This document shows, one piece after another, positions 5,153 through 63,533 of a stretch of 64,000 bases of DNA; position 1 is the first letter of the stretch; every line of letters starts with the position of its first letter. Made by a program: the position numbers and the translations under genes. The stretch is taken from positions 1-64,000 of the forward strand of contig LNEY01000022.1 of NCBI GenBank assembly GCA_001464195.1, written 5' to 3'. Below the pieces are notes generated by a model. It had not been told where the DNA came from. It searched no databases and worked only from the letters and a program-made list of their open reading frames with translations. The stretch comes from Burkholderiales bacterium Ga0077547. GTDB lineage: Bacteria > Pseudomonadota > Gammaproteobacteria > Burkholderiales > Burkholderiaceae_C.

Positions 5153-6880
<1,728 letters not shown>

Positions 6881-6909: not shown

Positions 6910-7038
6910 GAGCGCTGCGGCGGGCCGCTGTGTTGCGTTCATGTCCCCCGGGCCGGTTCACCTTTTGTTCGCTTCGGGTTCAACAGCGTCGGCCCTCCTC
7001 CTTTACTTCACTCCACACAGCGACCCACCGCAGCGCTC
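6910..7038. repeat. Palindromic dispersed repeat, type A, copy 1 (129 nt)
   Basis: 24-nt terminal inverted repeats GAGCGCTGCGGCGGGCCGCTGTGT / ACACAGCGACCCACCGCAGCGCTC (22/24). Highly similar to 15064-15192 (same length, opposite strand) and 63264-63367. Confidence 0.9.
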
Positions 7039-7093
7039 CTGCCACCACCGAAGCGGGCGGGGTTTGATTCCTTTATCTGCCACTACGGTGCTG

Positions 7094-7226
7094 GCTGTCG
7101 AGGGCATGGGGTGACCGGCGCAGCGAAGTAAAGGGGGAGGGCCGGATCGGTCTTGCCCGAAGCGATTGGATGGTGAACCGGCCCGGAGGACATGAGCGGA
7201 GCCGGTCACCCCGCGCCCTCGACAGC
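7094..7226. repeat. Palindromic dispersed repeat, type B, copy 1
   Basis: 26-nt terminal inverted repeats GCTGTCGAGGGCATGGGGTGACCGGC / GCCGGTCACCCCGCGCCCTCGACAGC (24/26). The core GAAGTAAAGGGGGAGGGCCGG...GGTGAACCGGCCCGGAGGACATGAGCG is the inverted core of type A. Confidence 0.88.
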
Positions 7227-7269: not shown

Positions 7270-8364
7270 TCAGCTCGCCGGAAACGCGATCAGGTGGTCC
7301 ATGTCGAGGCGGATGCCAATGGCTTCGCCGATGCGGTGGTTGTGGTGCGAGGGCACCATCGACAGCACGCGGGTACCGCTGGCGAGTTCGAGGGTGTACA
7401 GGATCTGCGCGCCTCTGAACGCCTTGTGCCGCACGATGCCCTGTGCGGGGCTGGTGTCGTCGTGCACCACGTCGTCGGGGCGCAGCAGCACATCGATCTG
7501 GCTGCCGATGGGGCACGGACTGCCGTCGGGCGCATAACGGATGGTCTCAGGTGCCGACACCGCGCCGATCTCGATGGCCAGTTGCCGCTCGGCCACGACC
7601 GTGCCACGCACAAAGACACCCTGACCAATGAAGTCGGCGACGAAACGGCTGGCCGGGCGGTGGTACAGGTTGTAGGCGGTGTCGATCTGCTGGATGCGGC
7701 CGTCGGCCATCACCGCCACCTCGTCGGCCATCGCGAAGGCCTCGTTCTGGTCGTGGGTGACAAACACCGCGGTGGTGTTCGTGGCCTTCAGGATCTCGCG
7801 CACTTCGGCGGCAAGCTGCTCGCGCAGATCCACGTCGAGGTTCGAAAACGGCTCATCCATCAGCAACAGACGCGGCTGCGGCGCCAGCGCGCGCGCCAGT
7901 GCTACGCGTTGCTGCTGCCCACCAGACAACTCGTGCGGGTAGCGCTGTGCGTGTGACTTCAAGCCGACCATGTCGAGCAGACGCTCCACGCGAGCTTTGT
8001 CGTCAGCGCTGCCGCGCGTCCCGAAAGCCACATTGCGCTCGATGGTCAGGTGCGGGAACAGCGCGTAGTCCTGAAACACCATGCCGATGCGGCGCTGCTC
8101 CGGCGGCAGATGCCGGCCCGGCCCGCTAACCACCTCGCCCGCGATGCGGATCTCGCCGCCGGCCAGGGGCTCGAAGCCGCCAATGCAGCGCAGCACCGTG
8201 GTCTTGCCGCAGCCCGAGGGGCCGAGCAGACAACAGATGCTCCCGGTGGCGAGCGTCAGATTCAGTCCATCGACCGTGGCACGCGCCCCATAGGCATGAC
8301 GCACGCCGTGGAGGCTCAGGACAGGGACAGGAGTCGGGGTGGTCATCGATGGGGCCGGTGGCAT
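7270..8364 (-). CDS. fbpC: Iron(III)-type ABC transporter ATP-binding protein (alternative start at 8346)
   Basis: Walker A GPSGCGKTT, signature LSGGQQQRVALARALA, Walker B LLLMDEPFSNLD; C-terminal regulatory region as in FbpC/PotA-like ATPases. Confidence 0.85.
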   Translation of the reverse strand: MPPAPSMTTPTPVPVLSLHGVRHAYGARATVDGLNLTLATGSICCLLGPSGCGKTTVLRCIGGFEPLAGGEIRIAGEVVSGPGRHLPPEQRRIGMVFQDYALFPHLTIERNVAFGTRGSADDKARVERLLDMVGLKSHAQRYPHELSGGQQQRVALARALAPQPRLLLMDEPFSNLDVDLREQLAAEVREILKATNTTAVFVTHDQNEAFAMADEVAVMADGRIQQIDTAYNLYHRPASRFVADFIGQGVFVRGTVVAERQLAIEIGAVSAPETIRYAPDGSPCPIGSQIDVLLRPDDVVHDDTSPAQGIVRHKAFRGAQILYTLELASGTRVLSMVPSHHNHRIGEAIGIRLDMDHLIAFPAS

Positions 8365-14503: not shown

Positions 14504-14758
14504 TCAGTAGTGATATCGCAGCTGCCCGATCTGCAGCGCGGCGCCTTCGACCCGGTAGACCATCCGGTGCTCGTCGGTGATCCTGCGAGACCAGAACCCG
14601 GCGAGCGCATGTTTCAACGGTTCTGGCTTCCCCACACCAGAGAAGGGATCACGCTTCACTTCCTGGATCAGCTTGTTGATGCGCTCAACCATCTTGCGAT
14701 CCTGCTTCTGCCAATACAGGTAGTCGTCCCAAGCCTCATCCGAGAAGACCAGCTTCAC
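14504..14758 (-). CDS. yoeB: Txe/YoeB-family mRNA interferase toxin
   Basis: 84 aa: MKLVFSDEAWDDYLYWQKQDRKMVERINKLIQEVKRDPFSGVGKPEPLKHALAGFWSRRITDEHRMVYRVEGAALQIGQLRYHY. Confidence 0.95.
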   Translation of the reverse strand: MKLVFSDEAWDDYLYWQKQDRKMVERINKLIQEVKRDPFSGVGKPEPLKHALAGFWSRRITDEHRMVYRVEGAALQIGQLRYHY

Positions 14759-15006
14759 TCGGCCAACTCGCGAACCTCGCCCCTGCCTTCCACAAGCTGG
14801 GTGACCGCAGCAAGCAGCCGCTTGGCGTTCGCTGGGCTCCGAAGCAGGTAGGCTGTTTCTTCCAGGGCCTTGAAGTCATCGAGCGACACCATGACCACCG
14901 ACTGTTCGCCATTGCGGGTGATGATGATCGGCTCATGGTCCTCGCAGACCCTGTCCATGGTCTTGGCCAGGTTCGCTCGGGCAGCACTGTAGGTGATTGC
15001 GTCCAT
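14755..15006 (-). CDS. yefM: YefM/Phd-family antitoxin
   Basis: MDAITYSAARANLAKTMDRVCEDHEPIIITRNGEQSVVMVSLDDFKALEETAYLLRSPANAKRLL; ATG at 15006 after AAGGAG; overlaps yoeB by 4 nt. Confidence 0.93.
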   Translation of the reverse strand: MDAITYSAARANLAKTMDRVCEDHEPIIITRNGEQSVVMVSLDDFKALEETAYLLRSPANAKRLLAAVTQLVEGRGEVRELAE

Positions 15007-15017
15007 GGGTGGCTCCT

Positions 15018-15040
15018 TTGTACGTTTTATTGTACGTACA
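15018..15040 (-). promoter_or_regulatory. Candidate autoregulatory operator of yefM-yoeB
   Basis: TTGTACGTTTTATTGTACGTACA: a perfect palindrome TGTACGTACA (15031-15040) plus a second TGTACG half-site, 12-34 nt upstream of the antitoxin start. Resembles the TGTACA-core YefM-YoeB operator of E. coli. Confidence 0.5.
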
Positions 15041-15063
15041 TGACCATACAAATGCCGTGTCCT

Positions 15064-15192
15064 GAGCGCTGCGGCGGGCCGCTGTGTGGAGTGAAGTTAA
15101 GGAGGAGGGCCGGAGCAACTCAGGCCGAAGCGGATGACTGGCGAACCGGCCCGGGGGACATGAACGCAACACAGCGGCCCGCCGCAGCGCTC
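15064..15192. repeat. Palindromic dispersed repeat, type A, copy 2 (129 nt, opposite orientation to copy 1)
   Basis: 24-nt perfect terminal inverted repeats GAGCGCTGCGGCGGGCCGCTGTGT / ACACAGCGGCCCGCCGCAGCGCTC. Core matches the reverse complement of 6910-7038. Confidence 0.92.
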
Positions 15193-63263: not shown

Positions 63264-63367
63264 GAGCGCCGTGGTGGGCCGCTATGTTCCGTTCATGTCC
63301 TCCGAGTCGGGCTGCGCCCAACTCTCCCCCTTTACTTCACTCCACACAGCGACCCACCGCGGCGCTC
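63264..63367. repeat. Palindromic dispersed repeat, type A, copy 3 (104 nt)
   Basis: Arms GAGCGCCGTGGTGGGCCGCTATGT / ACACAGCGACCCACCGCGGCGCTC (21/24); shares CGTTCATGTCC and CTCCCCCTTTACTTCACTCCACACAGCGACCCACCGC with copy 1. Confidence 0.85.
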
Positions 63368-63423
63368 CTCTAAGCAACGGAGAAGTCGAAGGTTTCGAGT
63401 CTTCGCAAACAACGACGGTGCCT

Positions 63424-63533
63424 GCTGCCGAGGGTGTGGGGTGACCGGCGCAGCGAAGTAAAGGAGGAGCTATCGGCCGCAGGCCGATAGTGGGGGACAT
63501 GAGCGGAGCCGGTTACCCCATGCCCTCGGCAGC
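63424..63533. repeat. Palindromic dispersed repeat, type B, copy 2
   Basis: Arms GCTGCCGAGGGTGTGGGGTGACCGGC / GCCGGTTACCCCATGCCCTCGGCAGC; shares GAAGTAAAGGAGGAG and GGGGGACATGAGCGGAGCCGGT with copy 1; internal 9-bp hairpin CTATCGGCC-GCA-GGCCGATAG. Confidence 0.85.

Follow-up and report, generated by a model that had tools for sequence, protein, structure and literature searches.

A covarying family of paired hairpin ends between genes of Burkholderiales, possibly the ends of cassette-like mobile units

Several described kinds of repeat come close to the element reported here. MITEs and cargo-carrying non-autonomous transposons such as TIMEs are short units with inverted ends and can carry cargo, and ERIC and similar enterobacterial repeats are palindromic intergenic sequences of about 130 nt. 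In the accounts of REP sequences on which we draw, which include PMC2817692, the palindromes are 20–40 nt long with a GTAG-type foot, and the RAYT systems of the same source act on inverted palindrome doublets.

The element analysed in this study occupies positions 6910–7226 of a 64,000-nt stretch of the Burkholderiales bacterium Ga0077547 genome (hereafter the window), between ureC (5153–6880, + strand) and a convergent gene for an ABC-transporter ATPase (7270–8364, − strand), the products of both neighbours having been assigned by reading their sequence. It consists of an A-class end (6910–7038, + by the strand of its C-rich core), a spacer (7039–7093) delimited by alignment of own-genome units, and a B-class end (7094–7226) that is inverted relative to A, with its C-rich core on the − strand and its purine fold on the + strand. 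The arms of the A end (6910–6938 and 7010–7038) are 29 nt long and 86% complementary, and those of the B end (7094–7124 and 7196–7226) are 31 nt long and 87% complementary. The A core (6936–7012, +), comprising the internal loop strands and the inner hairpin, and the B core (7122–7198, −) form an inverted repeat of 77 nt with 78% complementarity. Matches to the covariance model described below (R1) were obtained at 6911–7039 on the + strand for the A end (87.2 bits) and at 7095–7223 on the − strand for the B end (95.9 bits). The selected fold lies on the opposite, purine-rich strand, which is the − strand in the A end; compared with shuffled sequences this strand gave z-scores of −7.1 for A and −6.4 for B, with none of 200 shuffles folding equally well. 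A sequence-only reading of this locus had described two tandem palindromes of about 130 nt with inverted cores, and all of the sequences, arms and cores that it quoted could be located; direct reading likewise confirmed that the core 27-mers of A and B are complementary at 25 of 27 positions. The spacer differs in length in other genomes, and comparison of spacers revealed pairs in which it is occupied by cargo genes.

When elements were aligned on their cores, the two sides paired at a fixed offset over approximately 26 bp in nearly all sequences, and the arm sequences split into 33 clusters with the pairing kept. The order from the outside in is a 26-bp covarying stem, the conserved loop strands GCTCATGTCCCCC and TCCTCCTTTACTTCGCT, a short GG/CC stem and a variable hairpin, so that an end of about 100–130 nt has termini that differ between types around a conserved interior. 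In the outer stem of 22 diverse elements, 88.2% of cells were paired as against 37–42% with the partners slid; both sides had changed in 25 of 32 pairs, and the covariation score was 0.606 compared with 0.06–0.13. The arms of 24–26 nt that had been proposed earlier are, at about 26 bp, only the outer part of a longer hairpin whose inner stem pairs too. Similarly, the A and B arms, previously called unrelated, do fall into two distinct classes, but a GGG..CCC block within the outer stem is common to both. The locus had also been predicted to fold either as two separate hairpins or as one long A–B duplex; the covariation argues for the former, and because it falls inside each individual hairpin the long duplex was set aside.

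The two strands of an end are not equivalent. Outer-stem mismatches in 97 dereplicated elements, read on the purine-rich strand, comprised 206 G.U and 39 A.C (p = 1e-28), and the loop bases of TCCNCCGG and TCCNCCTT swapped together, being C/T in 138 elements, T/C in 36, T/T in five, C/G in one and G/C in one on the C-rich strand, which on the purine strand amounts to A.G versus G.A (138 versus 36, p = 1e-32) plus two Watson-Crick replacements, or to counts of 41, 9 and 1 after dereplication (p = 3e-9); all of these p values are upper limits on the strength of the asymmetry because related elements were counted as independent. The G.U excess was present in the A and B classes alike. The natural cause of both the wobble bias and the loop swap is a fold of the purine strand, as RNA or as single-stranded DNA; strand-biased mutation could produce the wobble bias and hardly the loop swap.

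We also noted two further features of the loop. The purine-strand loop strands (AAAGGAGG and GGRGGACATG) contain a Shine-Dalgarno-like GGAGG together with an ATG, the GGAGG lying on one or the other side as a result of the A/G swap. Many copies, across many genera, have a second palindromic segment inserted at one fixed point of the loop, TCATG^TCCCCCGG; one example, GACACAAACAGTCCTCAGGACTGTTTGTGTC followed by a GC hairpin, is found at the ureC locus of genome G068, and four other loci provide more. The hairpins of this inserted segment covary as well; the segment could represent a domain that is optional, or else a further site-specific repeat.

The composition and orientation of paired ends were largely fixed. 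Classified by their arms, 93 of the 99 close pairs comprised one A and one B end, and cores pointed inward in 92 of 94 two-element groups, although many of the counted pairs belong to related species and cannot be taken as independent events, and the looser pattern behind the grouping counts adds chance matches. Full units from the own genome, once brought to one orientation, all read A then B. Of 84 paired units, 42 lay between convergent genes (a count from the same looser pattern) and two in divergent regions, compared with 13 and 46, respectively, of 139 background gaps of 100–700 bp, these counts being approximate because genes were called with a simple ORF script. The copies are thus strongly linked to gene 3′ ends rather than scattered irrespective of them, and the first description of the element is supported on this point. 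Single elements in tandem gene pairs were oriented 13 one way and 11 the other; many apparent single elements have a partner interrupted by the second hairpin, which inflates the single counts. As the composites are symmetric and the single elements divide 13 to 11, a simple sense 3′-UTR element is without support.

An RNA function is the main rival to the mobile-unit reading set out below. The family would then act in cis as an RNA element at the 3′ ends of genes, and its genomic spread would have come about through ordinary recombination: a transcript from either flanking gene would run through the C-rich strand of the near element before reaching the far one, whose folded purine strand would terminate or process the RNA and shield the convergent neighbour. 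The location of half of the units between convergent genes and of almost none in divergent regions fits this proposal, as do the strand-specific G.U wobble and G.A-type loop covariation, which are typical of RNA, and the retention of the unit across the genus at several loci. However, the single elements in tandem gene pairs show no strand preference, some units, including those at two loci, follow an ordinary intrinsic terminator, relatives lose units freely, and both the cargo and the strict A+B pairing would be left unexplained; we consider this explanation a serious one that is nonetheless unlikely.

A search of the window with the covariance model returned exactly five elements, and a core 22-mer allowing up to three mismatches gave four matches in the window and none in 100 shuffles. 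In addition to the two ends downstream of ureC, there is an A-class end without a partner at 15063–15191 on the − strand (R1, 90.7 bits), which directly adjoins yefM-yoeB and also neighbours a phosphatidylserine decarboxylase gene (Pfam). Both yoeB (14504–14758, −; PF06769, E = 3.7e-40) and yefM (14755–15051, −; PF02604, E = 4.1e-26) were identified by Pfam. Since the window search found no B end on the far side of this gene pair (14504–15051), its position is only suggestive of cargo. The remaining two elements form a second complete unit between convergent genes, with an A-class end at 63265–63368 (+; R1, 82.9 bits) and a B-class end at 63425–63530 (−; R1, 83.3 bits), both placed by model match and alignment. 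The inner hairpin of this A end has been swapped for a different one that likewise pairs, and that of the B end is CTATCGGCC..GGCCGATAG. Downstream of yoeB, the segment 14410–14500 forms a strong imperfect hairpin, GAGCCGACTCTCC..GAGCGGCTC, that is somewhat attC-like in look; its boxes do not match the attC consensus.

The covariance model, built from 22 diverse elements, identified 45 copies in the own genome (2.84 Mb), where the 326-bp unit used as a query also matched in many places. The model recognised carriers in 22 of the 61 genera sampled from the host's taxonomic family, and outside that family just one genus of another family carries the repeats among 160 Burkholderiales genomes. At least 106 stretches of public genome sequence contain the core 22-mer, nearly all of them from Burkholderiales, with Rhizobacter, Rubrivivax, Hydrogenophaga, Albitalea, Ideonella, Methylibium and Paucibacter among the matches listed. 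Searches of viral contigs and phages gave no match; plasmids gave none with the window unit and five weak matches, in Variovorax and Burkholderia, with a diverged end. Rfam returned nothing at the gathering score and, at E values up to 1, just a microRNA model far under its threshold, and a search of the literature, covering both the sequence itself and paired intergenic repeats of the taxa concerned, yielded no account of the repeat family, which is apparently undescribed so far. The proposal of a multicopy family with types A and B, made from the window letters, therefore stands; it was an understatement, in that strand asymmetry, end classes, spread among genera and cargo genes were all missing from it.

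Another rival is a REP/BIME-like origin, in which the repeat would be multiplied by a RAYT (Y1) transposase. Such repeats would share with the family its extragenic inverted palindrome pairs, its enrichment at gene ends and its strand-specific fold, and single Y1_Tnp genes are present in some carriers. However, no Y1_Tnp match above the cut-off was found in the own genome, G061, G066, G068, G074, G021 or G012, all of which are carriers (a further genome, G065, gave a sub-threshold match). Given that several rich carriers have no Y1_Tnp above the cut-off, that ends of 100–130 nt are of the wrong size, that the alignments contain no GTAG foot and that the conserved part is the internal loop, dependence on a REP/RAYT system was rejected, and we judge this origin to be highly improbable.

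Some end pairs are 0.3–3 kb apart. In the own-genome parC–parE gap, the order is an end on the + strand, a PIN toxin and RHH antitoxin, a second + end, a 347-aa ORF and an end on the − strand, the two + ends being 126-bp direct repeats of 97% identity that flank the PIN/RHH pair. In the gap of the pccB- and pccA-like genes of G036, a + end and a − end are followed by HipBA and another − end, with HipBA flanked by 129-bp direct repeats of 90% identity, and in G006 inverted ends of 93% identity surround an ORC/CDC6-like AAA+ ATPase and a 290-aa protein. Further cargo comprises DUF2306, a DUF3027-like 100-aa ORF, a glyoxalase and ORFs without an assigned product. The GC3 of cargo is 0.56–0.74 as against 0.76–0.94 for flanking genes, HipBA (0.67–0.74 versus 0.76–0.79) being the weakest low-GC case. 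Searches of Pfam, PADLOC and NCBIfam at E = 0.01 gave nothing for the cargo ORFs of 347, 415, 184 and 290 aa, and neither of the first two had a match in the PDB. No mobilising enzyme was found, and no cargo protein looked like a candidate. The PIN/RHH pair also occurs in G006, there without recognisable ends, and these genes are therefore not confined to the unit.

Comparison of the parC–parE gap among relatives revealed different contents between retained ends. Both ends of the own unit are kept in G069 (94% and 89% identity) with a redoxin gene inside instead, and similarity between the two genomes ends just inside the two ends. In G068 and G074 the ends are partly kept and other genes lie inside, and in G061 and G066 the content is different with little or no end sequence. 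We also noted that this gap is a hotspot, its content differing wholly per species among five congeners and ranging from approximately 1 kb to 12.7 kb.

Strand-specific hairpins beside toxin–antitoxin and other low-GC cargo, together with gene-plus-end direct repeats, raise the question of whether the ends are attC-like recombination sites belonging to an integron system whose gene cassettes are dispersed. However, no integron integrase (IntI) was found in the own genome, which is 88% complete and whose tyrosine recombinases, as read from their sequences and neighbours, are of XerC, XerD and phage types alone. The outer ends vary between types and contain no conserved GTT/AAC (R) boxes, the conserved sequence is internal, and the ends form inverted A+B pairs. 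Integron membership was rejected on the lack of IntI and of the boxes, and attC-like sites seem to us a very improbable explanation.

At the ureC locus, six genomes from a detailed comparison within the genus, the own genome among them, have the unit whole or in part, and this copy is therefore an old one that has been passed down in the genus. In one of the six, G074, the A end has been lost through a deletion across its stem, and in G063 the unit is absent, leaving an empty site. Elsewhere, units were found full, halved, fused by an inner deletion or with an unrelated repeat in their place. Several other sites that had been scored as empty were rejected, having turned out to be the same locus with the unit in place, to be decayed or to hold a different repeat. 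At five sites, in the pccB–pccA and gabD–gabT-like gaps of G061, G063 and G066, congeners without the unit carry another intergenic repeat (..GGCGCCCGCCAGCGGCCCGGCAAAGCCGGTTCCGCGGCGGTTGCTTG..), as if one repeat family replaced another at the same place. No target-site duplication was seen in own-genome flanks, the empty sites of relatives being too diverged or replaced for reading, and no active movement was seen at the loci compared among relatives.

Copy number, defined ends and the existence of both empty and occupied sites would also be expected if the family were a MITE derived from an ordinary DDE transposon, with the arms as terminal inverted repeats. However, variable termini around a conserved interior are the reverse of a MITE, a single end alone is already a complete inverted repeat, and strand-specific wobble and G.A covariation are unexpected for duplex recognition sites. 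With no target-site duplication in the own-genome flanks, we regard a MITE as improbable.

The reading that we prefer, and to which we attach an even chance, is that the family consists of non-autonomous, cassette-like mobile units of Burkholderiales with folded ends, mobilised in trans. It draws on the copy number and spread among genera, the covarying stem with its G.U bias and loop swap, the strict inward A+B pairs, the low-GC3 cargo, the gene-plus-end direct repeats of PIN/RHH and HipBA, the same ends with different genes at parC–parE in the own genome and G069, and the empty ureC site of G063. Against it stand the missing enzyme, the unreadable target-site duplication, the many sites that are old and decaying rather than fresh, and the PIN/RHH pair of G006; moreover, homologous recombination between repeats could have gathered the cargo, and parC–parE may simply be a permissive site. 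Each end is a hairpin of about 100–130 nt with the 3′ side of its purine-rich strand at the outer border of the unit, and this strand folds into the 26-bp stem, the purine-rich internal loop and the inner hairpin. According to the mobile-unit reading, a trans-acting enzyme would recognise the folded strand, as RNA or single-stranded DNA, and move or recombine the ends; copies would persist at gene 3′ ends, where they presumably do least harm, and cargo modules of a gene plus one end would join through recombination at existing ends. The ureC copy is in this view an old unit without cargo that has been passed down in the genus. More tentatively, we suggest as a possibility that these are a new class of mobile unit whose dissimilar A and B ends are both recognised, through the conserved purine loop, as structured single strands of RNA or DNA. 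Such units would take up foreign genes and swap them at fixed sites on the chromosome, using neither an integron integrase nor a RAYT nor any other enzyme recognised so far.

Roughly one in three sampled genera of a major environmental family thus carries an apparently undescribed repeat family with strong covariation. If its ends mobilise cargo, they would offer toxin–antitoxin and defence-like genes a way into core loci that depends on neither integrons nor known transposons, and the enzyme involved would represent a new recombination or retro-mobility system; if they act on RNA instead, they would constitute a new paired 3′-end motif.

Among known systems, the family resembles REP/BIME/REPIN sequences in that its extragenic palindromes form inverted pairs, are numerous in each genome, are concentrated at gene 3′ ends and keep their arms complementary through paired mutations; it differs in its conserved internal loop and inner hairpin, its two fixed end classes, its cargo genes and the several rich carriers without a RAYT above the cut-off. 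With integron attC sites and cassettes it shares a fold that is kept as the sequence varies, strand specificity, a variable terminal hairpin, toxin–antitoxin cargo and gene-plus-site modules, whereas its conserved boxes are internal, its ends form inverted pairs dispersed at gene 3′ ends, and the own genome has no integrase. Like MITEs and TIMEs, the units are short and non-autonomous, with inverted ends and a capacity for cargo, but their terminal sequence is variable and each end is a self-contained hairpin. The likeness to ERIC, which had been remarked on when the element was first read, is limited to size, palindromy and intergenic site, and the present family differs from ERIC in its taxa and in its two-ended composite form.
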